Source: Lactobacillus sp. PV012 (lineage in GTDB: Bacteria; Bacillota; Bacilli; Lactobacillales; Lactobacillaceae). Taken from it: a stretch of 64,000 nucleotides of DNA. How positions within the stretch are numbered: position 1 is the stretch's first letter; every line of letters starts with the position of its first letter. The DNA is taken from contig NZ_CP041983.1 of assembly GCF_014522325.1 (NCBI RefSeq), positions 868,001 through 932,000 on the forward strand, written 5' to 3'. This document shows positions 5,961-30,465 of this stretch, in pieces. The notes beneath the pieces are model-generated. The model saw only the letters and a program-made list of their open reading frames with translations. It did not search any database and had not been told where the DNA came from. The position numbers and the translations under genes were made by a program.

Positions 5961-8900
5961 TATCTTTCTTCCCTAATTTTTTATCAATCTCATCTATTAA
6001 CTGTGAACTATCTTTTATCGTTGGCAAATCATGGTATTCATTTTCTGGTAACATTGGATCAAAGAAAAAGATATCTTTATAATCTGAATACTTAAGTGCC
6101 GTATTTTTCCCATCCCTGAATGGATTCAATGCGATTTTTCCGCTTAGTATTTTCTGAGCAGCTTGTTTAATCAAAAAGTCATTATACTCAAGCAGCTTAT
6201 CTAGCTGATTAGGGGAAAAGATTACTGTTTTCCCCTTTCTTTTACTAAAAGTTTGATCTTTGTTTAACTGAACACCATTGTAAAAATCAGATTTTCTACT
6301 TTCTGCCAAAGTTGGCTCAATTTCCTTTAACAAAGATAAATCTTTTACCAAAATTCCTCTATACTGAACTTGTTTGCGATTTTCGGCCTTTAAATCTTTT
6401 ACTTTAAATCCTTTTTGAATGTTAGTTTTCTTATTTATTAACTCTCTTTTATTCGCAATTGTTTGATAAAAAGCACCCATAATTTTTAAAGGCTTATCAC
6501 CATCAGCAAAGTAGCCGGCATTTTTATTTAAAACGTCTAGATATGACATCATTTGTAATGAAATTCCAGAAAAGAATTTGTTCATTTCAAAATTCTTTTC
6601 AGACGACTTATAATCAATCAATTGTGCTATCGTTTGGTCATCAATTTGAGCTAGATCTATGCGATCAATTTTTCCTCGGAGTCCTACCTGATGCATTTTC
6701 CCCTTAAAATCTGGTACTTCAAATTTTAATCCCTTAACTTTTTGTGAACTTCCGAAACTTAATTCTGAATACTGAGGCCTAAAAAGAGTTTGATTTAAAT
6801 GATTATGCCAAAAATTAGCTACATAGTTAGTAGTAGAGTCCAATCGTTTAAATAAATACTGATTAAATGGATCATTTAAAAGTTGACGATATTGGCCCTT
6901 TTTTTGTAACTCTAATTGAATTTCTCTTAGAATCTCATATAGTTGTTCTATGCTAATACCTGCTAAATCTAAATGATGAGCTTTTAAATATTTAACCAAA
7001 TTATCAAAAGTTTCATGATAGTAGTTTCCTGCTTGGATAACATCCAATTCATTCTCAACTCTTTTATGAAGTCTTAACCCATAATTCAAAAAATATTCAA
7101 ATGAGTTTTTGTAATAGGTTTCTAACTGAGAAATTGAGGTTTCAATTGTTTGACCATATAGCTCTTGTGCCAACTCTTCACTTAAATCTTCTGGAACATT
7201 CTTAAATTCACTGGACAAGATTAAATGTTGTGCTAACTCGGGTTCTTTCGGACTAGTCAATTCCACTAATGCCTGTGCATAGGAAAAATTATTATTCTTC
7301 ATATAAGTTAAATAACCCAAACTAGCTTTAGGATTTGTAACAAATGAAAGAACTTCTTCCTGATTTACAGGTAAGTCACGCTGTCTTTTTTCTGGCTGCT
7401 CTGTTAATCTACAAAGTTCCTTATAGTACAAAGACGGTTGCATTTTTTCATTTGAAGCATTCAAAATGGGGTAAGAAAAATATATCTTATCTGAAGCTAG
7501 ACTTAGTACATTACCAAATTGATAATTTTGATCTAAATTATTGACTTTATGAGAATCTTCTAACTGATTTTCACTTTCAGTAATTGTATTATTAATTTCT
7601 TCAATATTTTCACTACTTAAAAAACCAGGGGTAGTTTGTAACTGTGGCAAATTAGTACTAGTTGCTCCCAAAATAAAGACTTGTTTATATTTTGGAATCT
7701 GCACCATCCCTAATTCGGAAATATTCACAGCATCTAATGTTGAAGGAATTTGAGAAAAACTTGCCTCTCCAAACCCACTAATTAATAAATCAAAAAATGA
7801 GTCAAGATCGTATTCTTTTGCAATTAATAGGTAGTCCTTAATTAAAGTTTGTAATGTCGACCAAACTTGCTCAGGTTCCTGCGCTAATTGTAAATCACCA
7901 GTATCAATAGCTTGTTTACGCCACTGCTCAAATCTTTCCGGAACATGATTTTCAACTAAAAAGTTCCAAAATTTATTTATTCCTTCTTCTACCTCTGTTA
8001 CCTGCTTTAATTGCTCGATGATGGTTTTGATGGTTTTCAGTAAATAAGTTCTTAACTTATCTAAAGTTTGGACCTTCTCTTGAGCATTATCCAATTTAAT
8101 GACATTAGCATCTACAAAATCTGTCAGGGGTCTTTCCCAAAGAGAAAAGTTTATTCCATGAGCTAAGACAAAATTTTCTAGATTATCTAGGTCTTCTTGA
8201 TACTGTTGTTCAGTTTGATACCAATCTGGAAGAAATAACTTTGTTTTAGCAAAGGCTAAGATATTTGTAGTAGAAAAATTACCCTTGGCTATTTTTCTTA
8301 AACTTTCAATGACTACCACTAGTGGATGATATTTCATTTGTTTTTGTAAATCATTGAAGAATGGAATTTTATTTTGGCGCATAATTGGGGCTAAATAAGT
8401 TTCGTATTCACTAAGATTTGGTGCTAAAACTAAAAAATCACGATAACGATAATTATGTAAGGCAACTTGTTGATAAATTGTTCGTGCAACAAAATAAGCC
8501 TCTGCATATCGTGAATCCGCCTTTATAAAATAGGTAAAATCTTTAAATTCATTACTATCTTTAAACGGAGGAAGCTCTTGCACCCACAGACCATTTAACT
8601 TTTCAGCTTTTGAGATTTTATTCTTACTTAGGAAAGCTTCTTCTTTAACCTCTAATCCTTGCTGGAACCAACTTGCTTTTAATTGCTTAATAGTTTTTTG
8701 CACAATGTAATCGTAATCTCCTACTTGAGAAGTTTTCTTTATCGTGCCATCCTTTGTTTTAAAAGCAAAAGTTATATTATTAGCTTTAGTAGAAATTAAC
8801 TGGACATTTTTCAATTCTTGAGATGTAAAATGCGAAAAATCTACAAAGAAGAAATTCATTTCTTTTAAGTTCTTTGCCTTCATCAAAAACTTGTTTAATA

Positions 8901-10475: not shown

Positions 10476-11447
10476 ATGAATAAAAAAACAGCACGCGCCC
10501 ATACTAATATTGCGTTAATTAAATACTGGGGTAAAGCCAATCCTGATTTAAAGCTTCCTTTAATGTCCAGTCTATCTATGACACTAGATGCTTTTTATAC
10601 TGACACAACTTTTGAACATAGTCCTGAATTAACAGAGAATAGCTTCTATCTAAACGGCCAAAAACAAGATTTAAGCAGTAGTAAACGAGTCTTTGAATAT
10701 ATTAAACGCCTCCAGAAAATGTATGGTTTCAACGACCACTTTAAAATATCTTCGATTAATCATGTCCCCACTGCTGCTGGCCTTGCCTCTTCTGCCTCTG
10801 CATTTGCGGCCTTAGCTGCTAGTTTTGCAAGTAGTTATCAACTTGATTTAGATAAAAAAGATCTCTCTAAACTTGCCCGCTTAGGATCAGGTTCAGCAAC
10901 ACGTTCTGTTTATGGTGGTTTTGTCATTTGGGAAAAAGGAAATTCTCATGATACTTCTTTTGCTACTTCCCTTATTGAAAAACCAGCTTGGGATTTACAG
11001 ATGTTAGCAGTTGAAGTAAATACCCACCCTAAAGAAATTTCTTCTTCTACAGGGATGAAATTAGCTCAATCTTCTCCCTTTTACCAAAATTGGCTTGCTC
11101 GTAATCAAGAAGAGATTGATTTAATGAAAAAGGCTATTGATAACAAAGATTTCACTCAATTAGGAGAACTAAGTGAATTATCAGCTAACGAAATGCACTC
11201 CTTAAATTTAACTTCCCAGCCTAGTTTTACTTATTTTTCTCCTCAAACAATTGCTCTAATCAATTTAGTTCATAAATTACGTCAGCAGGGTATCGAATGT
11301 TATTATACGATTGATGCTGGCCCGAACGTTAAGATTCTTACAAAACATAATTATACTGAAAAGATTGTTAACTCTGTTCAGGAACTGTTTCCTAATGTTA
11401 AAATAGTTACTGCAGGTTTTGGTCCAGGAGTGACCATTTTAAACTAA
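10476..11447 (+). CDS. mvaD: diphosphomevalonate decarboxylase
   Basis: Converts 5-diphosphomevalonate to isopentenyl diphosphate with ATP. The start chosen is the ATG at 10476, not the TTG 21 bases upstream, because AGAGGAAA sits 9 bases before it and the family begins with A-x-A-x-x-N-I-A-L-I-K-Y-W-G-K, seen here at residues 5-19. The GHMP loop AAGLASSASAFAALA is near 100-113. 323 aa. It lies 2 bases after mvk, so the genes are translationally coupled. Confidence 0.96.
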   Translation: MNKKTARAHTNIALIKYWGKANPDLKLPLMSSLSMTLDAFYTDTTFEHSPELTENSFYLNGQKQDLSSSKRVFEYIKRLQKMYGFNDHFKISSINHVPTAAGLASSASAFAALAASFASSYQLDLDKKDLSKLARLGSGSATRSVYGGFVIWEKGNSHDTSFATSLIEKPAWDLQMLAVEVNTHPKEISSSTGMKLAQSSPFYQNWLARNQEEIDLMKKAIDNKDFTQLGELSELSANEMHSLNLTSQPSFTYFSPQTIALINLVHKLRQQGIECYYTIDAGPNVKILTKHNYTEKIVNSVQELFPNVKIVTAGFGPGVTILN

Positions 11448-11476
11448 TATGATTGAATAGATTAGAGGAAATTCTT

Positions 11477-12550
11477 TTGATAACTGAAAAAGCACCTGGA
11501 AAGTTATATATTGCTGGCGAATATGCAGTTTTAGAACAAAACTGTCCAGCTATTTTAGTAGCACTTAATGAATTTGTAACTGTTTCAATTGAAAAATCGA
11601 CTGGATCTTCAGGATTAATTCATTCCAAGCAATATTCTCAAGACTCCCTTCATTGGGTTCGCCAAGGTAATCAAATGGTTATTGATAATCGTGATAATCC
11701 TTTCGAATATATTTTATCGGCTATTAAATTTACGGAACAATTTTGCTTAGAGCAAAAAATTTCAATGTCACTATACGATTTACATGTTAATTCTGACCTA
11801 GATTCTCCAGATGGTAAAAAATTTGGTTTAGGTTCTTCAGCTGCAGTTACTGTTGCAACTGTCAAAGCTATTTTGAAATTTTATGGTTTAAATTGTAGCA
11901 AAGATCTTATTTTTAAACTTTCAGCTATTTCTCACTACAGCGTTCAAGGAAATGGTTCAGCAGGTGACATTGCAGCCAGTGTTTATGGTGGCTGGTTAGC
12001 ATACCAAACTTTTGACAAAAAATGGCTAAAAAAAGAACTCAAAGCTAAAAGTTTAAGTGCTGTTTTAAATGAAGCATGGCCTGGATTAAAAGTACAACTT
12101 TTAACTCCTCCAGATGATCTCGAATTAGTTATTGGCTGGAGTCAAAAGCCAGCATCTACTTCTCAACTTGTTGATAAGACAAATGCTAAAAAAGCCCACA
12201 TTCGTCATCAATATGAAGATTTTCTTCAAAATTCTCGCGAGTGTGTTCTAAAAATGATTGAAGGGTTTGAAAAGGGCGATATTTCAATTATTAAAGATCA
12301 AATTCGAATTAATCGCACCCTTTTAAAAGAATTTGCGGCTCTCAATCATATTGCAATTGAAATTCCACGCCTCAGCAACTTAATTGAAGTTGCTGAACAG
12401 TTTGGTGGTGCCGCTAAAACCTCTGGTGCTGGAAATGGTGATTGTGGTATCGTAATCGCTGACACCAATACAAATATTGAACAAATGAAAGTCCTATGGA
12501 AAGAAAATGGTATTTTACCATTAAATTTTTTAGTTCATTCCATTAATTAA
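11477..12550 (+). CDS. mvaK2: phosphomevalonate kinase
   Basis: Phosphorylates 5-phosphomevalonate, the step between Mvk and MvaD. GHMP kinase: KAPGKLYIAGEYAVLE at the N-terminus, FGLGSSAAVTVATV near 116-129 and KTSGAGNGDCG near 315. The start is taken as TTG at 11477 because GAGG lies 8 bases before it; an upstream in-frame TTG at 11453 has no site and adds eight residues before the family's usual N-terminus. 357 aa. It follows mvaD by 29 bases in the mevalonate operon. Confidence 0.94.
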   Translation: MITEKAPGKLYIAGEYAVLEQNCPAILVALNEFVTVSIEKSTGSSGLIHSKQYSQDSLHWVRQGNQMVIDNRDNPFEYILSAIKFTEQFCLEQKISMSLYDLHVNSDLDSPDGKKFGLGSSAAVTVATVKAILKFYGLNCSKDLIFKLSAISHYSVQGNGSAGDIAASVYGGWLAYQTFDKKWLKKELKAKSLSAVLNEAWPGLKVQLLTPPDDLELVIGWSQKPASTSQLVDKTNAKKAHIRHQYEDFLQNSRECVLKMIEGFEKGDISIIKDQIRINRTLLKEFAALNHIAIEIPRLSNLIEVAEQFGGAAKTSGAGNGDCGIVIADTNTNIEQMKVLWKENGILPLNFLVHSIN

Positions 12551-20844: not shown

Positions 20845-21912
20845 TTATTTTACATCTACATCTGTATCCCACTTAGGAGTTACGATGTAATCAAAATCAT
20901 CATCGTCAGAGCTCCATTTAATTACTCTGGAATCTGAATTTGCACCATAAGTATTAAAATCTGCTAGTTGGTCAATTAACCCTTTGATAGGTTTAGATTT
21001 TACTGTCTTACCATCAACCACAGTGGTTAAATAGAATTCTCCATCTTCATCTGGATCATATTTCTTATGAGAAGAAGAGGAGCTTTCATCATTACCCCCA
21101 CGAAAATATGTTCTAATGGTTTCACCATTCTTATCCAATGTACCTTCTTTTTCATGGATACCATTAAAATAAATCTTACTATAAGCTGGTCCTTTTATTT
21201 TTACACTATATGTTTTTACATCCAGGAATACTGGATCGTTATTAACTATATCGACAGTCTTGTTAGTTTCTTGTTTCTGTTTATTATAGACAGTTATATC
21301 ATACATTCCTGCTAAAAGATTTACCTGTTTCTTGCCATTAGATTTTATTTTTCCCATATTAGTCCCATTGATATAAAGTAAATCATTGTCATCATCTGTA
21401 TTAATTACAGGACTATAGGTTCTAACTTTTAATGAATATTTAGGGAAAATCATAAAATAATTTCCATTTCTCACTAATTGAAGAGTTTCTTTAGAATTTG
21501 GTTGTTTTAAAGAATTAACTAGGTAATCTTTTAAACTCTTTTTATCACTTTTGTTAAGATATTCATAAGATGTTTGCAAAGGCTTTAAAGTTTCTGGAGT
21601 AATTTTAACAGTCGAATTATCAGTAATAACATAGTTTTTTAATTTAGGAGAATTAGTAGTAAGAGCATTTACAATTCTAGAAGCCTGACTATCCTGACTA
21701 TAATATTTGGTGCCAGCAAATCCTAGAGCTGCCACAATTACTAATATTCCAATGTAAATTAAATATTTTATTTTTTTCTTTTTTGATTTTAAGGGTTTAG
21801 GATTGGGAGCTGTTGGGGAATTTTGAGAATTGTTGGTAACTTGACCACAATTTCCACAAACTTTATCAGTAGGTTTTAGGGGATGGCCACAATTTGTACA
21901 AAATTTTTTCAT
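20845..21912 (-). CDS. zinc-ribbon membrane protein, TcaA-like
   Basis: 355 aa. The N-terminus is a CxxC-x10-CxxC zinc ribbon (Cys5, 8, 19, 22), then a Pro/Lys linker and one membrane helix at ~48-68; the remaining ~285 residues face outward. The outer part has a helical domain (~75-150) and PEGA-like beta segments (LLYINGTNMGKI, KIYFNGIHEKEGTLD), the architecture of TcaA/YvbJ proteins linked to envelope stress and glycopeptide response in Staphylococcus and Bacillus. A cytosolic sensor ribbon joined to an outside domain suggests envelope sensing; the function here is inferred. It follows the 253-aa membrane protein by 20 bases. Confidence 0.8.
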   Translation of the reverse strand: MKKFCTNCGHPLKPTDKVCGNCGQVTNNSQNSPTAPNPKPLKSKKKKIKYLIYIGILVIVAALGFAGTKYYSQDSQASRIVNALTTNSPKLKNYVITDNSTVKITPETLKPLQTSYEYLNKSDKKSLKDYLVNSLKQPNSKETLQLVRNGNYFMIFPKYSLKVRTYSPVINTDDDNDLLYINGTNMGKIKSNGKKQVNLLAGMYDITVYNKQKQETNKTVDIVNNDPVFLDVKTYSVKIKGPAYSKIYFNGIHEKEGTLDKNGETIRTYFRGGNDESSSSSHKKYDPDEDGEFYLTTVVDGKTVKSKPIKGLIDQLADFNTYGANSDSRVIKWSSDDDDFDYIVTPKWDTDVDVK

Positions 21913-22762: not shown

Positions 22763-23563
22763 CTACTTAATTACGAGACTTGTCGCACGAATCCAGTAGC
22801 TTTTACCGTAGACTTTGTAATAAGTTTTACCCTTAATTGTTTTCTTTTGATTTAATTTATAAGTATGGTGTCCGTAAACCTTAGTTCGAGTAGTCTTTCC
22901 AGTTGAAGTGTAAGTGGTAACCTTGGCATTCTTTCTGCCTCTAACGTAGCCTTTTAAGTTAACCTTCTTTACTGAAGAAGCTGAGGTATTGTTTTCAACT
23001 TTAATTGGGACGACAATTGAGGCGGCGTTCTCATTACCACGCCCTTCATATCCTAAATCCATTTTATCTCCACTAACAATATGTGGTTCTGGTGCCCCAT
23101 TATCACCTGTATCCCATACATATAATGACCATTCTTTGCCTACATAATTTCCCCAATTCCCTTGTTGTAATAATCTGCTATAGTGAGAGCCATTTTTCAC
23201 ATTAAAAGTTAGCACAGCACTATAACTTTTTCCTTTTCTTAAGGGAGTATTTACACTTAGAGCTTCTGTGTAGTCTGGATCACCATTATCCATATTCGCA
23301 TAAACTGACATTCCCAACATTTTTGTTACTTTACTTACATTAGAAGTAACATCGCTAACTGGACGTAGAGCAAGAGAACCAACTGTTTCCCCATTTTTAG
23401 CAACAAGATATGGAGTCTTTTTCTTAAGCCATAAGGTTGCAGTTTGATCATCATCGTCTGCGGCTTGAACAATGTTTGGATGAATGCTGTTTGCCACAAC
23501 ACCAGTTAAAGGAGTTACTCCTAATAATGCAGCTACAACCAATCCTAAGTATTTCTTCTTCAT
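22763..23563 (-). CDS. secreted SLAP-domain protein
   Basis: 266 aa. A signal peptide (basic KKK, hydrophobic ~6-25, cleavage near VQAA at 33-36) is followed by ~155 residues of unrecognised, Gly/Asn-rich beta-type sequence. Residues ~198-266 are an S-layer-associated (SLAP) domain: VRGRKNAKVTTYTSTGKTT, then KVYGHHTYKLNQKKTIKGK and YYKVYGKSYWIRATSLV. This domain anchors proteins to the lactobacillar wall without a covalent bond. One of the genes with the shared dyad-box promoter. The start has GGAGAG nine bases upstream. Confidence 0.85.
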   Translation of the reverse strand: MKKKYLGLVVAALLGVTPLTGVVANSIHPNIVQAADDDDQTATLWLKKKTPYLVAKNGETVGSLALRPVSDVTSNVSKVTKMLGMSVYANMDNGDPDYTEALSVNTPLRKGKSYSAVLTFNVKNGSHYSRLLQQGNWGNYVGKEWSLYVWDTGDNGAPEPHIVSGDKMDLGYEGRGNENAASIVVPIKVENNTSASSVKKVNLKGYVRGRKNAKVTTYTSTGKTTRTKVYGHHTYKLNQKKTIKGKTYYKVYGKSYWIRATSLVIK

Positions 23564-23605: not shown

Positions 23606-23652
23606 ACTTTACTATTAAAAATCACATCTGTCTTGAAATCTTCCATATTGAT
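23606..23652 (-). promoter_or_regulatory. shared-box promoter A (SLAP-protein gene)
   Basis: Minus strand: box ATCAATATGGAA (23641-23652), 6 bases, -35 AAGACA (23629-23634), 17 bases, -10 TAAAGT (23606-23611). Both core elements are poor, which fits an activator-dependent promoter. The whole ~105-base region up to the start codon is nearly identical to promoters B and D. Confidence 0.7.
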
Positions 23653-23705
23653 ATAATACAAGCGTTATTTAAAATTACTTCTACTTATCATTAATTTTTT
23701 AAACA

Positions 23706-23743
23706 AAAAGGTTGATTCCAACTAATAATTGCAATCAACCTAA
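23706..23743 (-). terminator. terminator of the 146-aa secreted-protein gene
   Basis: Minus strand AGGTTGATT...AATCAACCT with a 15-base loop, followed by five T. Confidence 0.8.
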
Positions 23744-23761
23744 TAAACTAGAGACACTAAC

Positions 23762-24202
23762 TTATCTTCTATAATGCTTCAAAGCAGCTGACTTACTTTT
23801 ATAATAAGTCTGCATAGCACTCGCATCCCTTAAACTTTGGTGATTAGATGAAAGGTTTAGAGGATAAATTCGTCCACCAATGTAGTAAAAAGTCAAAGTA
23901 TTTCCTTTACTACTAATTAAAACTTTACTTGGAATTGAAAGTGAGGTAGCTCTATATGCCTTAGAAGAATACTTGTATACTCGAGCATTTACTCCATCTA
24001 ATTTAATTCTAGTACTATTAATCTTATAGGCATGAACTTTCTTTCTAGATGTTGCTAAATACCAAGTACCTCTAAATCTTTTGGGAACAGTTGTTGTTTT
24101 TAAGACACTAGCTTGAGCAGATTTCACATTAACTTTATCTGAAACTCCGACTACGCCAATAAAAACTAATAATGCAATCCCTAATAACTTTAAGCGTTTC
24201 AT
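23762..24202 (-). CDS. small secreted protein, unknown function
   Basis: 146 aa with a signal peptide (basic start, hydrophobic core ~6-20, likely cleavage after AQA near 31). The mature part is basic and Tyr/Ser-rich, beginning KRFRGTWYLATSRKKVHAY, a pattern common in small lactobacillar secreted proteins with a lipocalin- or DUF-like beta fold; I do not recognise a named family. Monocistronic: its own shared-box promoter upstream and a terminator downstream. Confidence 0.7.
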   Translation of the reverse strand: MKRLKLLGIALLVFIGVVGVSDKVNVKSAQASVLKTTTVPKRFRGTWYLATSRKKVHAYKINSTRIKLDGVNARVYKYSSKAYRATSLSIPSKVLISSKGNTLTFYYIGGRIYPLNLSSNHQSLRDASAMQTYYKSKSAALKHYRR

Positions 24203-24241
24203 TTTGTATCTCCTATATTAATATAATTTTTTTCAAATTCT

Positions 24242-24288
24242 ACTTTACTCCCAAAAATTACATCTGTCTTGAAATCTTCTATATTGAA
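24242..24288 (-). promoter_or_regulatory. shared-box promoter B (146-aa secreted protein)
   Basis: Minus strand: box TTCAATATAGAA (24277-24288), a full dyad TTC-n-ATAT-n-GAA, 6 bases, -35 AAGACA (24265-24270), 17 bases, -10 TAAAGT (24242-24247). Spacing is identical to promoter A. Confidence 0.72.
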
Positions 24289-24401
24289 ATAATACATTTG
24301 TTATAAAATTAAAACTCGATAAATTTTACTTCAACTTAAATAATTCTTTTGCTTCGTTAATTTAAGCCATAAATCAATTTTATTTAACGTGTTACCTCTA
24401 A

Positions 24402-25880
24402 TTATTTACGTGATAATTTTCTAGACAATTGTCTATTAGTAGTATTAAGGGCTTCATTCATACCATCTAATTTTCTATTCGTATTTCCCAGTTGTCTATT
24501 TGTTTCATCTACCTTAGAAGTAAGCGATGTATTTACTGCTACATTTGCTGCTATGCCACTTTGAATAGTTCTCTTAATTCTTTTAGCATTCGCATTAATA
24601 GACGAAGTGATATTATCAGCACTATTTTTCATATCGGTATCTATAACATTAACACCCTGCTTAATATCCTTTAGTTCTTCCTTAATATTTTCAATCCCAT
24701 TACGAATTTCTTGATGTTGCTCAATAATTATCTCTAATTTATCTGATACGTTTCGAAAACCTTTTTCAACAGTATTTCTCATTAAAGTACTATTACGTTC
24801 AATATCTTGACGTAATGCTAAATTTTCTTCTGCTCGTCCCCAACGATCCTCAGCAAGCCGAACAGCATCCCCCGCAGTTAGTGCTTGCTCAGTACGAACA
24901 AGTTCATATAACTCTGCATAATATTTTAAATTACCAAACCGCTTTGCTGGAACATCAATAAACAAATCTTCTTTCGATTTAAGTAACTTTCTGAATTTTT
25001 TTGCTTGCTTTAAGTAATAAGTACATTGATCTTTCAGATACTCATAATTTTTAATTTTAATCTTATTTTGCCCAATTATAGCCGGAAGTTCTTTTACTGC
25101 TCTCTCTGCCCCAGCTCTACGCCTTTTATTTTCCTCTATTCTCTCATTTCGGCTAGTAACTTGTATCTGATACTCTTCATATTTTTTCTGTGCAGCAATC
25201 TTTTCTCTATACTCAGATATAGCTAGTTCATAGTTTTTTATCTTTTGATTGTATTCAGCCATCTTTTGATTATACTCACGCTTAGGCACCGTTTTTCTAA
25301 ATATAATAATAATACCAATAATAACGATCAATCCTACAATACATCCAATATTCTCTGCTTTACCAGAAGCCAAGAAATTAAACAAAGTTTGATCATTTTT
25401 AGAAGGATTTTTCATTATTGATAATGCTATAATTTTGCTTTGAATTATCTTAGATAGTCCATAAGCCCATAAAACTAAAGGTATAAAGATTAATAGAGCA
25501 TACTCCCACCACTTCCACTTGTGCATAGGTTTATAATCAGGTTTCTTCAATTTACGAAGCTCATCTTGTTTTTTCTTTAATTGTTGTCTATATTCCAGGA
25601 TTTTTATAGTAGTATTATTCGGTGTTTCGTCGCTTAGAACTGGCTGAGTTTTTTCTATTTTGGGAACAGATACTGCTTTAAATTTTCCTGAATTGTTTTT
25701 AGCGTTTGTTAGGTCTATTTTATTACCACTCATAACTTTTTGAAAAAAATTAATTTCAGAATTTATATCCCTGATTTTATTATGTAAATCTATAATATTC
25801 TGGTTATTTTTCTCTGTTTCTTTAATTACAAGATATGTTTGCTTAATTTTATAGAGTAACGCTTGCTTTTTGTCATTCAT
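24402..25880 (-). CDS. coiled-coil membrane protein, unknown function
   Basis: 492 aa from the ATG at 25880 (GGTGG eight bases upstream; an ATG at 25895 is the alternative). Residues ~1-50 and ~85-115 are charged coiled coil, two membrane segments lie near 125-147 and 178-195, a long coiled coil runs ~205-330, and the C-terminal ~130 residues are heptad-like and Asn/Arg-rich with repeats of the type NxxLxxxN. No enzyme motif is seen. It is 45 bases downstream of the zinc-ribbon gene and probably in the same operon. The tail resembles helical hairpins of toxin/adhesin-associated proteins, but I cannot assign it. Confidence 0.7.
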   Translation of the reverse strand: MNDKKQALLYKIKQTYLVIKETEKNNQNIIDLHNKIRDINSEINFFQKVMSGNKIDLTNAKNNSGKFKAVSVPKIEKTQPVLSDETPNNTTIKILEYRQQLKKKQDELRKLKKPDYKPMHKWKWWEYALLIFIPLVLWAYGLSKIIQSKIIALSIMKNPSKNDQTLFNFLASGKAENIGCIVGLIVIIGIIIIFRKTVPKREYNQKMAEYNQKIKNYELAISEYREKIAAQKKYEEYQIQVTSRNERIEENKRRRAGAERAVKELPAIIGQNKIKIKNYEYLKDQCTYYLKQAKKFRKLLKSKEDLFIDVPAKRFGNLKYYAELYELVRTEQALTAGDAVRLAEDRWGRAEENLALRQDIERNSTLMRNTVEKGFRNVSDKLEIIIEQHQEIRNGIENIKEELKDIKQGVNVIDTDMKNSADNITSSINANAKRIKRTIQSGIAANVAVNTSLTSKVDETNRQLGNTNRKLDGMNEALNTTNRQLSRKLSRK

Positions 25881-25940
25881 TTTTCTATCCACCATTTTAC
25901 TAAAAGTAATCCAATTAATTATTAAACTTAAATAATACTT

Positions 25941-26711
25941 TTAACTCTTAACTTCCATTTTATCTACTAAATTCTTCACTTCATCGCTATCTTTAACTTG
26001 CTGAATTTCTTTAGCACTTAAGGTTGCAAAGGGAGTTACATGGCGCGTTGCAGAATCTTTTGAAGATTGCTCGTAACAATAAACAGTTGATCCATCTGAA
26101 CTTATCCGATATTCAAGAATTTCTCCACCATTTTGCCCGTCACTGGTAAACATATAACTTACTCCCGTTCCAGGCTCAGAATAATTTTCATTTTCTGCGC
26201 TTGCTTGAATTACATTGACTTCAAGACTATCTTGAGTTGCAAAACTCTTCCAGCCTTCACTTTTTTTTCCACCTAGTAATAAAACAGAAGAAGCTAATGT
26301 TTTAGGACCAATGTTTGCTACAGTTGCTCCATCACCGTCATCTTCATTATTATCAGATGCCGCATCTTCTTGATTACTACTGCTACCAGCATTAATACTT
26401 TGTGCACTATCAGAACTTGTTACTGAAGAAGAGTTTTTTGTTTCCATCACTGCCGAGTTATTTGAATTATCCATATTTTGATAAACTAGATATCCACCTT
26501 CGGCTAAAAGTGCTACCACACCAATTCCAATAAACCATTTATAAGCAGAATGATTTTTCTTACTAGCTTGCTTAGCTGGTTGCCTCATAGATCCCCTATT
26601 TTTAGTAGATTGATTAATTTGCTCTACTGGAGTAAGGGGTGTCCCACAATTTCCACACACCTTATCAGTATTCTTAACTGGATGACCACAATTTGAACAA
26701 AATTTATTCAT
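25941..26711 (-). CDS. zinc-ribbon membrane protein with outside domain
   Basis: 256 aa. Zinc ribbon Cys5, 8, 19, 22, nearly identical in sequence to that of the TcaA-like protein 4.8 kb away (FCxNCGHPxKxTDKVCGNCG), then a basic linker, one helix at ~59-78, a Ser/Asn/Asp-rich linker (~85-130) and a ~120-residue outside domain with no family I recognise. It is preceded by shared-box promoter C and followed by the coiled-coil gene. The matching ribbon hints that the two proteins see the same cytosolic partner. Confidence 0.75.
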   Translation of the reverse strand: MNKFCSNCGHPVKNTDKVCGNCGTPLTPVEQINQSTKNRGSMRQPAKQASKKNHSAYKWFIGIGVVALLAEGGYLVYQNMDNSNNSAVMETKNSSSVTSSDSAQSINAGSSSNQEDAASDNNEDDGDGATVANIGPKTLASSVLLLGGKKSEGWKSFATQDSLEVNVIQASAENENYSEPGTGVSYMFTSDGQNGGEILEYRISSDGSTVYCYEQSSKDSATRHVTPFATLSAKEIQQVKDSDEVKNLVDKMEVKS

Positions 26712-26744
26712 TAATATCCCTCATTTTTACATTCAATAATCCTT

Positions 26745-26791
26745 ACTTTATCATTAAAGTTTATTTTCGTCTTAAAATCTTCCACATTGAA
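26745..26791 (-). promoter_or_regulatory. shared-box promoter C (zinc-ribbon/coiled-coil operon)
   Basis: Minus strand: box TTCAATGTGGAA (26780-26791), 6 bases, -35 AAGACG (26768-26773), 17 bases, -10 TAAAGT (26745-26750). The region downstream of the -10 has diverged from A, B and D, while box and spacing are kept, which argues for function. Confidence 0.7.
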
Positions 26792-26820
26792 ATAATCCGC
26801 CTGTTATATCTACTACCTAC

Positions 26821-26862
26821 AAATAAAGGATAAGCCGATTTTATTACTAGCTTATCCTTTAT
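26821..26862 (-). terminator. terminator after the pseudo-matrixin gene
   Basis: Minus strand AAAGGATAAGC...GCTTATCCTTT, an 11-base perfect stem with a 14-base loop, then ATTTG. It lies 77 bases past the stop at 26939. Confidence 0.75.
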
Positions 26863-26938
26863 TATCCTTATTTATTTGTAACTAATTTTCGCCGGTCAGT
26901 TCTCTCTTTGATTTTTTAACAATCATAATTCTACTAGT

Positions 26939-27949
26939 TTAGTAGATGGAGTAGCCATCATAGGGGTGCGCATAAATCCAATTTATATGTTCTACATCCA
27001 TTTGCGTTACAACAAATTGTGAATTTAACATTTTTTCAGACACGTAATTTTCATCTTCATCTTCTCCATATTCCTCTAATCCATGGAACGCAGAGATATC
27101 ATTTGTGCCATAAGTTTTATAAATATCCTCGAAAAAGGCATCATTATAACCAATACCGATAATTTGTCCTAATTGACTCGCTATTTCATTAATTTTTCTT
27201 TGCTTGGACATATTTTTAGTAAGTACACAAATATTTGCAACATCATCATTTAAACGAGCTTGACCTTTTTTCTTCTTGTGAACTTGACCGTTACCATCCC
27301 AATACTTAATATGTCTTGATTTTATTAGTTTTTTATCTGTAACTTCAATTAATTCCGATCCAGTCCAAGATTTATTTCCATCATATTCTTCAGAATAAGG
27401 ATCATCACAAATCACAATATTAGCATACTTTTTTGAAGTTGAACGAAACTTGGCATGTTTCATTGAATTAACAAGATTAAATTTAAAACCTGGCTTCCAC
27501 ATTTTAATTGCCGCCTTTACTTCTGGCAACAAAGACTTATCCTTTACGTAGATATTTGCTGAACGTTTTTTTAAATTACGATGCGCCATTCCTTCATAGG
27601 GATATAAATATTTCTTACTAATATAATTAATATACATATTCCAATTATCTGGATTCTCTCCACGTTGCCAATCTTCATATCCCGGAACTTTACTTTTATT
27701 ATACACATCATTGTATAAATCAACCTTTGCTTTTATATGTTTTGGAGTATCATCTTCCCAAGGATGGAAATTAGTAAAATAAAGAGACTGAATAGAATGG
27801 ACTTGGTGATCCCATGCTCGATCCCATGGCAGAGTTGTACCTACATTATTAGCTGCTTGTACCTTTTGAAGTACCCCGATTGGATGCACAATTGATATAC
27901 CACCTAAAAGTAACCCCATTCCTACTAAAGTTGATAAAAATTTCTTCAT
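26939..27949 (-). CDS. secreted matrixin-like protein with degenerate zinc site
   Basis: 336 aa from ATG 27949 (GGAGAG nine bases upstream); the open frame continues upstream only because the promoter happens to be open. A signal peptide covers ~1-33 (cleavage near VQAA). The C-terminal half has the layout of a small secreted metalloprotease (ANIYVKDKSL, ANIVICDDPY), but the segment expected to be HExxHxxGxxH reads SQLGQIIGIGYN. All three histidines and the glutamate are replaced while the surrounding Leu, Gly, Ile and Asn are kept. I infer a non-catalytic relative. Shared-box promoter D drives it. Confidence 0.7.
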   Translation of the reverse strand: MKKFLSTLVGMGLLLGGISIVHPIGVLQKVQAANNVGTTLPWDRAWDHQVHSIQSLYFTNFHPWEDDTPKHIKAKVDLYNDVYNKSKVPGYEDWQRGENPDNWNMYINYISKKYLYPYEGMAHRNLKKRSANIYVKDKSLLPEVKAAIKMWKPGFKFNLVNSMKHAKFRSTSKKYANIVICDDPYSEEYDGNKSWTGSELIEVTDKKLIKSRHIKYWDGNGQVHKKKKGQARLNDDVANICVLTKNMSKQRKINEIASQLGQIIGIGYNDAFFEDIYKTYGTNDISAFHGLEEYGEDEDENYVSEKMLNSQFVVTQMDVEHINWIYAHPYDGYSIY

Positions 27950-27992
27950 GTCTTTTGTCTCTCCTACTATTAATATAATTTTTTCATGTTCT

Positions 27993-28039
27993 ACTTTACG
28001 CCCAAAAATTACATCTGTCTCAAAATCTTCTACATCGAA
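27993..28039 (-). promoter_or_regulatory. shared-box promoter D (pseudo-matrixin gene)
   Basis: Minus strand: box TTCGATGTAGAA (28028-28039), 6 bases, -35 GAGACA (28016-28021), 17 bases, -10 TAAAGT (27993-27998). It starts about a dozen bases after the regulator's stop codon. Confidence 0.7.
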
Positions 28040-28051
28040 ATAATACAAGCG

Positions 28052-28828
28052 TTATCTAATCAATTGTAAAAATTCTTTCTTTAAACCAGCTATCGATACT
28101 TGATTCTCAATCCACTTTACTGTCTTAAAATCCCTTTTTCTTTTAGCTACTAGATATTGAACGGCTAATTTTTGAAGAAAAATATTTGGGGTAGTTTTCA
28201 ATGAATCCAAAACCTCTATTCCATATTCCTTTAAAGAAGACCTTTTATTCGCTTTACTTAACAAAAAAGCTACTACGATATCAGCAATCAGCCTTACAGT
28301 AGAATTTGCTACATCTTTTTCATCATATTTATAGAATATTTTTTCAACTATTACTGCGAAATTATCATTTGGATACAATTTTAAGCTGACTAGTAAACAC
28401 CACAAAAAGTTATCATCGTAGTCTTTTAACTTAAAAAGTAATTTTTTAACGTTTTCATTTTCTGTAAGTTTCTCACCTTTTAATGATCGAATCATTTCTT
28501 TTATTAATAAATTAAGTAACCTGCTTTTCACTTCTAAATTATTAAAAAGAATACTTAAGCTTGCGACATCTTTATTTAAGAAGTAATAGAGTGCTTGATC
28601 TTGATAATAACGAACGGTTTTTTCAACAGTAGAATATTCTCCTAGAAATTTCATCTTTGTAATATGATTATTATCTAAAATATTTATTAAATCTTCCGCA
28701 AATATTGTCGTATCTTCACGCTCAATTCTTGAGAGAGCCGATACACTAATTGTATTCTTCCCCACTAGGTTGCTTTGAGTAAGTCCTAAAGTTCGTCTAA
28801 GTAATAATAGTTTTCTTGAAATTAACAT
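28052..28828 (-). CDS. Rgg-like transcriptional regulator (second of tandem pair)
   Basis: 258 aa. N-terminal helix-turn-helix of XRE type (LLLRRTLGLTQSNLVGKNTISVSALSRIERE at about 6-37) and a ~190-residue all-helical C-terminal region with the look of the Rgg/MutR peptide-binding repeat domain, ending KTVKWIENQVSIAGLKKEF. Slightly shorter than classical Rgg (~285). It begins 2 bases after the first regulator, so they are co-transcribed. Likely an activator for the boxes in this cluster; ligand unknown. No adjacent short hydrophobic-peptide gene was found. Confidence 0.75.
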   Translation of the reverse strand: MLISRKLLLLRRTLGLTQSNLVGKNTISVSALSRIEREDTTIFAEDLINILDNNHITKMKFLGEYSTVEKTVRYYQDQALYYFLNKDVASLSILFNNLEVKSRLLNLLIKEMIRSLKGEKLTENENVKKLLFKLKDYDDNFLWCLLVSLKLYPNDNFAVIVEKIFYKYDEKDVANSTVRLIADIVVAFLLSKANKRSSLKEYGIEVLDSLKTTPNIFLQKLAVQYLVAKRKRDFKTVKWIENQVSIAGLKKEFLQLIR

Positions 28829-28830
28829 TC

Positions 28831-29421
28831 TTATCTTTGTCTATCCTCATTATTTAACTCAGGTAACTCTTTACTGATTTTTTCATAGCCATTGAAAGTT
28901 AAAAGTTCTTTAATCGTACTAATTTTCTTAGTATTTTTCTCAAAGAGTGCATGATAATATTGCGCACACAACTTTTCAATAGCTAAAATTGGATATGGGG
29001 GCAATCTTTCAATAAATTTAATCACTTTTTTACCCTCAGCTACCCAACTATTAACATAGCAATGATGTAAATACCTAATAGCTAAATCTGCTACTTCAGC
29101 TTTTTTATCAATCTTATTTTCTTCAGCTTCTTTAAATAAAAGCTCCATTAAATCCCAACTATCTTTTTGGGGTAAGGTAAGCAGACTAGTTTCTAAAACA
29201 TCAAGAGTTGTTTTATCAATTTCTGGATTATTAATTTCAAAAAAGTCTTCTAAAGAAATTCCATTTCTATTCAGCATTGTTAATAAAGCATCTATTTTAA
29301 CTTTACTAATATCCCGCTCAACTTTAGAATAATAAGATTCAGTCATCACTCCTTCTGACATCTCTGTTTGTGTTAATCCTAAAAAAAGTCGAACCGTTTT
29401 TAAACGTTCTCCAATTCTCAT
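28831..29421 (-). CDS. Rgg-like/XRE transcriptional regulator (first of tandem pair)
   Basis: 196 aa. XRE helix-turn-helix at 5-60 (ERLKTVRLFLGLTQTEMS, ESYYSKVERD) and a helical C-terminal region of ~135 residues, about half the size of a full Rgg ligand domain. The start is set at ATG 29421 (AAGGG eight bases upstream) because the likely transcription start lies near 29439, downstream of the longest open frame's start at 29463. It is first in a two-regulator operon, and its promoter also carries the shared box, so it is probably autoregulated. Confidence 0.75.
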   Translation of the reverse strand: MRIGERLKTVRLFLGLTQTEMSEGVMTESYYSKVERDISKVKIDALLTMLNRNGISLEDFFEINNPEIDKTTLDVLETSLLTLPQKDSWDLMELLFKEAEENKIDKKAEVADLAIRYLHHCYVNSWVAEGKKVIKFIERLPPYPILAIEKLCAQYYHALFEKNTKKISTIKELLTFNGYEKISKELPELNNEDRQR

Positions 29422-29445
29422 TTCTCTCATCCCTTCTACACTTCT

Positions 29446-29491
29446 ATAATAGTGATTTACCAATAAAAGTCAGAAAATCTTCTATATCGAA
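29446..29491 (-). promoter_or_regulatory. shared-box promoter E (regulator operon)
   Basis: Minus strand: box TTCGATATAGAA (29480-29491), 5 bases, -35 TCTGAC (29469-29474), 17 bases, -10 TATTAT (29446-29451). The core elements are better than in A-D, fitting a basal level of regulator with feedback. Confidence 0.72.
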
Positions 29492-29581
29492 AATTATTTG
29501 AGGGAAAATAACGTTTTATTAAATTAAATTATCTATAATTTAATAAACTACTTTATTTCTTGAATACTAGCATCTAAATTT

Positions 29582-29590
29582 TGCTATAAT
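29582..29590 (+). promoter_or_regulatory. extended -10 promoter of the LysR gene, probably leaderless
   Basis: TGCTATAAT at 29582-29590 is a textbook extended -10; TTGAAT at 29560-29565 is a distant -35. The ATG begins only 9 bases after the -10, so transcripts would start at or within 2-3 bases of the start codon. No purine-rich ribosome site exists upstream. Confidence 0.6.
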
Positions 29591-29598
29591 AATCAATT

Positions 29599-30465
29599 AT
29601 GGAAATTCGAGTATTAAGATATTTTTTGGCAGTTTGTGAAGAAAAAAATTTTTCCCGTGCAGCAAAGAAATTATTAATTTCACAGCCTGCTCTTTCAAAA
29701 CAAATTAAAGATTTAGAAACAGAATTAGGAGTTAAGTTATTTATTAGAGATCATCAGTTAAAACTGACTCCTGAAGCTTATTTTTTACGTCAAAAGGCTC
29801 AAGATATCGTCAATTTAAGTGATCTTACTGCACAAACTCTCAAAAAAGATAAAATAATTAGTGGAGTTTTACGTATTGGTGCAGGAGAAAGTCCTGAATT
29901 GGGAAATTTAATGAAAATTTTAGGCGAACTAGGTAAAAATAAAAATGTTCAAATTATGATGGAAGATGGAAATGCCGATCAAATCGAAGCTAAAATAGAA
30001 AATGGGCTCCTTGATTTTGGGGTAGTGATGGGTAATCGCCAATTAAGTAATTTTAATACTATTGTTTTACCTCAAAAAAATGAATTTGTTGCTTATTTTA
30101 AAGATAATTTACCTCTTGCAAAAAAGGTTGCTCTCACTTCAGAGGATTTGATTAACTATCCTTTAGGAATAATCAGTCAACGAATGGTTAATGATAAATT
30201 TAAAGTCTGGGCACAAGAAAACTTCGATAAATTAGATTTTTATGCGTTATCTAACTTAGCTTACAATTCTATTTTAATGGCTTATGAAACAAATACGGTC
30301 GTTATTACTTACAAAGGTTTACCCGCTATTAAAGATCCTCACTTTATTTATCGTCCACTCTCACCAAGAGTTTTTGATTTAAATACTCTAATTTGGAAGA
30401 AAAATATTCAATTAACTTCTTTAAACAGCAAATTTTTGGAAAAGCTTAAAGACTCTTTGCACTAA
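29599..30465 (+). CDS. LysR-family transcriptional regulator
   Basis: 288 aa. Winged helix-turn-helix in the first 60 residues (FSRAAKKLLISQPALSKQIKDLE), a linker helix, then a two-lobed effector domain from ~90. Its start matches the family norm, so the absence of a ribosome site is real. It is divergent from the Rgg-like operon and convergent with the alpha/beta hydrolase gene, which could be its target although LysR targets are more often divergent. Effector unknown. Confidence 0.9.
   Translation: MEIRVLRYFLAVCEEKNFSRAAKKLLISQPALSKQIKDLETELGVKLFIRDHQLKLTPEAYFLRQKAQDIVNLSDLTAQTLKKDKIISGVLRIGAGESPELGNLMKILGELGKNKNVQIMMEDGNADQIEAKIENGLLDFGVVMGNRQLSNFNTIVLPQKNEFVAYFKDNLPLAKKVALTSEDLINYPLGIISQRMVNDKFKVWAQENFDKLDFYALSNLAYNSILMAYETNTVVITYKGLPAIKDPHFIYRPLSPRVFDLNTLIWKKNIQLTSLNSKFLEKLKDSLH

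Follow-up and report, generated by a model that had tools for sequence, protein, structure and literature searches.

What does a short dyad box do that recurs before one gene or operon after another in a Lactobacillus chromosome? The question is raised by a 64-kb stretch of Lactobacillus sp. PV012 (positions 868,001-932,000 of the contig; hereafter the window), a genome of 1.54 Mb whose nearest relatives among those searched are Lactobacillus species. Five promoters of the window, here termed A to E, carry the box, and the original prediction read them as a local Rgg-like circuit acting on surface-protein genes. We find that the boxes probably make up a genuine switch acting on cell-surface proteins, because the same site precedes related regulators and surface genes in several other Lactobacillus species. 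The reading that we favor, with a probability of about three in four, is an autoregulated Rgg-type regulon of Lactobacillus, in which the regulator would bind the dyad and activate its own operon together with surface, secreted and zinc-ribbon membrane genes. Coordinates below are those of the window unless a genome position or a fetched locus (L-number) is named.

The box was found at all five promoters, always on the minus strand, and a single base is odd, namely in A (ATCAATATGGAA), where the first half-site reads ATC instead of TTC. The box is the central part of an operator that extends further, AAATCTTC-N6-GAAGATTT. The 12-mer core and the full operator lie, respectively, at 23641-23652 and 23636-23657 (A), 24277-24288 and 24272-24293 (B), 26780-26791 and 26775-26796 (C, upstream of a zinc-ribbon operon), 28028-28039 and 28023-28044 (D), and 29480-29491 and 29475-29496 (E, upstream of the operon of the two regulators, reg1 and reg2). 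The right half GAAGATTT is kept in A-D with a degenerate left half (ATTATTTC in D), and E has the fuller, nearly complete dyad TAATTTTCGATATAGAAGATTT. In A-D the box stands 6 bp before a -35 hexamer, which is AAGACA in A (promoter 23606..23634) and B (24242..24270), AAGACG in C (26745..26773) and GAGACA in D (27993..28021), and is followed after 17 bp by the predicted -10, TAAAGT. A spacer of 17 bp had been claimed for all five promoters; this is true of A-D, whereas promoter E (29446..29473) has 16 bp with -35 CTGACT, and reaches 17 only if the -35 is taken one base earlier as TCTGAC. The better -10 expected of E is present as TATTAT, and this promoter is near consensus (9/12). The -35 and -10 hexamers of A-D are weak, and the arrangement is thus of the activator type, with a dyad directly upstream of a weak -35 and a fixed spacing to the -10. 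A consensus promoter scan lists E of the five promoters, and is itself uninformative, since it found 54 promoters against 49.1 expected. A, B and D have a common leader and upstream sequence; hence, they are not independent witnesses, and we count them once, as what look like duplicates. C retains the box, the spacing and the -10 without the leader, as had been noted.

At the scale of the genome, the exact 17-mer TTCNATRTNGAAGATTT, that is, the 12-mer with an added GATTT, has four copies, which are B, C, D and E, all of this cluster. The target form TATTATTTCNATNTNGAAGATT has six sites with 0-1 mismatch (A-D and the genome positions 739776 and 740738), none with 2 and six with 3. The reversed control of TATTATTTCNATNTNGAAGATT yields 12 genomic matches when as many as 3 mismatches are allowed, so only the close ones are distinctive.

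We then have the evidence of other genomes. The fetched loci supplied 70 distinct genes for relatives of reg1 or reg2, and upstream regions of regulators from other Lactobacillus genomes were filtered for redundancy by dropping any with more than 65 of its last 100 bases identical to a kept region (67 to 60). A palindromic search of these 60 regions, free of any sequence from PV012, returned the motif AAAtnTTCnAatTnGAAnaTTT with a log-likelihood of 168.2, and 168.2 again with each of two seeds. With equal starts (80 per set), 10 shuffles reached 45.0-58.5. Four control sets, each of 60 other-gene upstreams drawn from a cleaned list after removal of three that carry the motif, reached 59.3-67.8. 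In a first control run, with fewer starts and regulators still in the control list, the real set scored 89.7, 19 shuffles 40.2-52.8 and four other-gene sets 59.0-68.5. In the window, the first three ranks by this motif go to E (21.3 bits), D and B in that order, ranks 4 and 5 are unrelated places, and C and A come 6th and 7th. Of the 60 regulator upstreams, 19 have a site of at least 14 bits, which is no surprise in a training set; in 14 of these 19 the site ends 49-65 bp before the script-chosen start codon. Of 181 upstreams of neighboring genes that do not encode these regulators, 3 reach this score, all before secreted- or membrane-type proteins.

A sequence-only profile of 54 bp was built from 23 foreign sites, again with PV012 excluded. 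These sites were picks from the motif list, and the downstream sequence of some was viewed by eye before the -10 offset was counted. Sites of at least 8 bits were left out when they lay inside genes, as were L111 and L113:5701 (near-copies), L122, L136 and L104:2017 (PV012 itself, before an unrelated gene). Of two sites before the same gene in L117, the one at 6018 (9.3 bits) was kept and L117:6053 (15.9 bits) left out, and the small loci L036, L044 and L040 (16.7, 15.7 and 26.2 bits by the motif) stand outside the 23. The five best places of this profile in the window are E (25.1 bits; E-value 1.4e-6), D (20.1), A (17.9), C (16.8) and B (11.8), B being barely separated from the sixth place at 11.3 bits. 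A match at an E-value up to 1 exists in 74 of 75 genomes, which is uninformative; 18 have one at an E-value up to 1e-4, and 14 of these gave training sites. The remaining four are PV012 (G000), G005, G064 and G088, and the G005 region was among the 60 used for the motif. PV012 has 18 profile matches; the ten listed are headed by E, D, A, the genome position 739781 and C, and include the promoter regions of three D paralogs (15.8, 15.7 and 15.6 bits) and 1229372 (14.5 bits), with B and 740738 not among them.

The geometry recurs along with the dyad. When the sites are aligned on the dyad only, TAnnnT stands at offset 25 after the 22-mer in all 23 foreign sites, against a mean of 0.67 at other offsets, and in 8 of the 10 own sites. 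The -35 is weakly kept, since its GAC is found at offset 4 in 14 of 33 sites. Rgg-type genes lie directly downstream of 18 of the 23 foreign sites.

The system is also wider than the window. The two promoters at 739776 and 740738 (L103:7778-7799 and 8740-8761) are near-identical to A-D and precede, respectively, a 233-aa (amino acid) protein whose C terminus is zinc-ribbon-like and a zinc-ribbon operon; after these genes come an Rgg-like pair of the cluster's own (285 and 278 aa) and what by eye is an OppA-like gene. Accordingly, the five promoters stand as a cluster, but the predicted regulon is not confined to it. In other species, the motif precedes an Rgg-type gene in L. kitasatonis, L. 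gallinarum, L. hamsteri, L. ultunensis, L. rodentium, L. kefiranofaciens, L. hominis, Candidatus L. pullistercoris and Lactobacillus sp. LL6. The last has six boxes in 16 kb, one before the regulator and five before surface-type genes: a 1135-aa secreted-type protein, a 572-aa membrane-type protein, a 225-aa zinc-ribbon protein, an operon of three secreted-type proteins and a trio of related secreted-type proteins. The flanks of these boxes are unlike those in PV012, and the LL6 cluster holds homologs of A (E-value 1.4e-41), B (6.1e-7) and the 739.8-kb target (5.3e-75). Elsewhere, a box precedes glycosyltransferase-type genes of an exopolysaccharide-like cluster in G088, and in G002 another is close to where a 470-aa secreted-type protein begins (gene types by eye in both). 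The target types common to several species are, in our view, the strongest sign of a working regulon. Thus, the foreign-genome motif and the homologous targets of LL6 support the main points of an Rgg-like circuit on surface genes, to which binding and activation are added by inference. A further conserved element, ATAAC and ATTAT about 6 bases apart, was observed just before the box in A-D and the two 739.8-kb sites, and is absent from E and the LL6 sites; it may be a second binding site.

The putative targets in the window, all on the minus strand, are those of the original prediction: three genes of apparently secreted proteins, the zinc-ribbon operon and the regulator operon. Target A (22763..23563, 266 aa) and target B (23762..24202, 146 aa) have apparent signal peptides, as has target D (26939..27949, 336 aa); signal peptides, membrane segments and coiled coils were recognized by eye. 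A C-terminal stretch of A is GW-like, though it falls short of the cut-off (E-value 0.0049; 18 bits against 21), and B shares a PKxxRGTWY stretch with its homologs. The C operon encodes a 256-aa zinc-ribbon protein with an apparent membrane helix (25941..26711) and a 497-aa protein with apparent membrane and coiled-coil stretches (24402..25895). Target D matches no Pfam family at an E-value up to 1; its family has a stretch, LGxxIGxG, which we take to resemble a metallopeptidase zinc motif minus the histidines, a likeness that has no Pfam match. D has paralogs elsewhere in the genome, two intact ones with a variant of the box upstream. The variant, ending in GATGG, was seen at L104:5510-5531, L105:6685-6706 and L105:10074-10095, the third being before a broken copy. 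Downstream of the cluster, 20845-21912 encodes a zinc-ribbon protein resembling TcaA (NCBIfam E-value 1.3e-8; 34 bits against a cut-off of 550), and the profile lists no box before this gene.

The two XRE/Rgg-like genes of the cluster, reg1 (28831..29421, 196 aa, the first gene of the E operon) and reg2 (28052..28828, 258 aa), are both on the minus strand. Judged by profiles and predicted structures, both belong to the Rgg/MutR type of the RRNPP fold family, which bears out their earlier assignment. Family profiles run against PDB sequences recover Rgg2 at E-values of 2e-13 (reg1 family) and 3.7e-19 (reg2 family), and the structural models match the Rgg/PrgX/PlcR fold with its C-terminal TPR-like helical domain, PrgX and Rgg3 being among the matches. 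The models come from shallow alignments (21 and 18 rows) and have pLDDT (predicted local distance difference test) values of 83.9 and 87.2 for reg1 and reg2. The N-terminal helix-turn-helix (HTH) of reg1 matches Pfam HTH_3 with 26 bits against a cut-off of 23; that of reg2, which precedes a TPR-like domain, is supported by family profile and fold, with a Pfam match below the cut-off. In reg1 the HTH runs straight into the part that in Rgg/PrgX begins at about residues 136-147, and the protein is shorter by about 70 aa than 12 aligned homologs. It groups with five regulators that all bear the motif (95/77). Relatives of the regulators, most of them distant, occur in 63 of the 75 Lactobacillus genomes searched, and a search of the genome contigs with reg2 as sole query found no relative. 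In a third regulator pair of PV012 (L106, about 11007-11870), the reg1-like frame has 73 codons and stands immediately ahead of a 213-aa reg2-like gene; short reg1-like frames were also seen in G005 (120), G007 (131) and L109 (117). In several species, groups of Rgg-like genes adjoin genes resembling thiI, nifS, rsuA and gtrA (L110, L116, L117, L184; names by eye), as if this neighborhood were an insertion hotspot.

A pheromone gene was looked for among short open reading frames (ORFs) with ribosome sites, of 10-60 aa in 12 regions and of 5-45 aa in 14 regulator regions. Within 27400-30100 of the window, no ORF of 5-45 aa with a GGAG, GAGG or AGGAG ribosome site accompanies reg1 and reg2, a search whose scope is adjacent genes with such sites and not distant or weak-site ones. 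Because of this, we file the system with the Rgg/RRNPP fold family and not with SHP/Rgg quorum sensing. Five of the 14 regulator regions hold one such ORF each: G008 (13 aa), L. ultunensis (5 aa), LL6 (9 aa), G094 (8 aa), and L. gallinarum, whose 18-aa ORF is the start of a broken regulator. The 10-60 aa listing gave several chance-like ORFs. The LL6 peptide METSASTMY (L135:1388-1417, plus strand) resembles that of G008 (MENSSSTM.., MENSSSTMFGVLF; L109:14843-14884, minus strand); both ORFs have a strong ribosome site, share the strand of the regulator and lie upstream of its box. Across the 75 genomes, their sequence is found without mismatch in these two only, and with 3 mismatches in G061 and G014. 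They are a possible peptide partner, a lead that is not family-wide.

At the level of sequence, the analysis gives an operator, a fixed promoter geometry, a fold family for the regulators, recurrence in other species and common target families; binding, positive control, the identity of the binding regulator and the inducing signal are what we infer. We propose that the Rgg-like regulator encoded in the operon (most likely reg1, perhaps with reg2) would bind AAATCTTC-N6-GAAGATTT as a dimer and, from just upstream of the weak -35, recruit RNA polymerase to a -10 beginning 30 bases past the GAA half-site (29 bases in E). The dimer would thereby activate its own operon as well as genes for secreted, cell-surface and zinc-ribbon membrane proteins; the fuller dyad and better -10 of E would fit feedback, and the degenerate left half of A-D a weaker response. 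We take the regulator to be an activator by analogy with RopB-type promoters, where, in the available portion of the source, a palindrome lies upstream of and around the -35 and the receptor is assumed to work on promoters that are defective (PMC10518010). Certain findings weigh against this proposal. The window shows no enrichment of the bare 12-mer, which, with up to 1 mismatch allowed, has 15 matches where shuffles lead one to expect 18.0, so that the suggested check for a box of random frequency and no promoter context comes out in two ways, the bare 12-mer being at random frequency whereas the extended box is not random and has a fixed -10. One listed profile match (genome position 958151, 15.7 bits) sits inside a coding gene. 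The reg2 clade carries the motif too, which bears on which regulator binds and slightly lowers our confidence. The shortening of reg1 recurs, from 196 aa here to little more than an HTH beside the reg2-like gene of the third cluster. A tentative idea, which we hold to be rather unlikely, is that the tandem Rgg proteins act as one unit: the shortened reg1 would bind DNA and reg2 would sense, a mixed dimer would read the asymmetric target half-sites, and the unit would respond to a signal from the surface or the host instead of to a dedicated peptide, in a lineage mostly without a recognizable neighboring pheromone gene.

Activation by an Rgg-type regulator has to be weighed against other accounts of the same boxes. 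The same operator and regulators could serve negative control, with an Rgg-type protein repressing next to the -35 until a signal relieves it. PrgX and Rgg3, both among the structural matches, are repressors in their own systems, and the near-consensus E promoter might need no help. In the aligned sites, however, the dyad is placed before the -35, and the -35 and -10 of A-D are weak, as at RopB-type activator promoters in the part of that study available (PMC10518010); we regard repression as unlikely. That another factor binds the box is less likely again: the candidates would be the divergent LysR-type protein encoded at 29599-30465, on the far side of E, or the distant Rgg pairs at about 745 and 975 kb. 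Cross-control between clusters is plausible since the boxes of this and the 739.8-kb cluster are near-identical, but the position of most foreign sites directly upstream of an Rgg-type gene speaks against another binder.

The two accounts that dispense with a regulator appear very improbable. One holds that the boxes are merely duplicated DNA, with A-D copied and E alike by chance or descent. The sequence common to A, B and D and the ordinary frequency of the bare 12-mer agree with this, but the motif was recovered from other genomes without this one, at a fixed distance to the -10, and the LL6 boxes have different flanks. The other, which we find hardly credible, treats the conserved stretch as a short coding cassette (frame FNIEDFKT...), conserved for its peptide and not as an operator. 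The frame is open for more than 25 codons in B, C and D, with an ATG just before it in B; yet the conservation is palindromic, and the frame stops within 25 codons in 22 of the 33 sites (after 6 in own2b and after 2 in G007), for which reason the cassette, and with it a small peptide gene across the box in A-D, was rejected.

The proposed regulon has partial parallels among described systems. ComR, PlcR and PrgX of the RRNPP family, whose folds match reg1 and reg2, work with dedicated peptides; beside the window regulators no gene for one was found. The streptococcal SHP receptors Rgg2 and Rgg3 have the same HTH and TPR-like fold and give a profile match; in contrast to them, there is here no pheromone gene beside the window regulators, two different regulators share one operon, and the putative targets are several and of surface type. 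With the RopB/LCP class there are in common, going by the accessible text, the position of a palindromic operator near the -35 and the role at defective promoters (PMC10518010). The RopB half-site given there, GTTACGTNT in a 9-7-9 layout, differs from AAATCTTC-N6-GAAGATTT (PMC10518010), and a leaderless-peptide gene was not found in the window. ElrR of Enterococcus faecalis, described in the available part of its source as a positive regulator of the elr surface-protein operon (PMC4522977), is a functional parallel, likened by description and not by operator, and differs in having one target operon. A literature search of titles and abstract openings, covering few subscription papers, brought up no Lactobacillus Rgg operator of such form; in the available text of a survey of regulons, Rgg is named once, in a table by lineage (PMC3616900).

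The finding gives a testable operator and a list of targets for a regulator family with relatives in 63 of 75 Lactobacillus genomes. As far as its available text goes, a survey that treats a nearby propeptide gene as the mark of these systems removed Rgg hits without one (PMC9765709), and such systems would have been missed there for that reason. Surface-type proteins, joined in isolated cases by glycan or exopolysaccharide genes, make up the putative targets, which would bear on how these bacteria meet their hosts.

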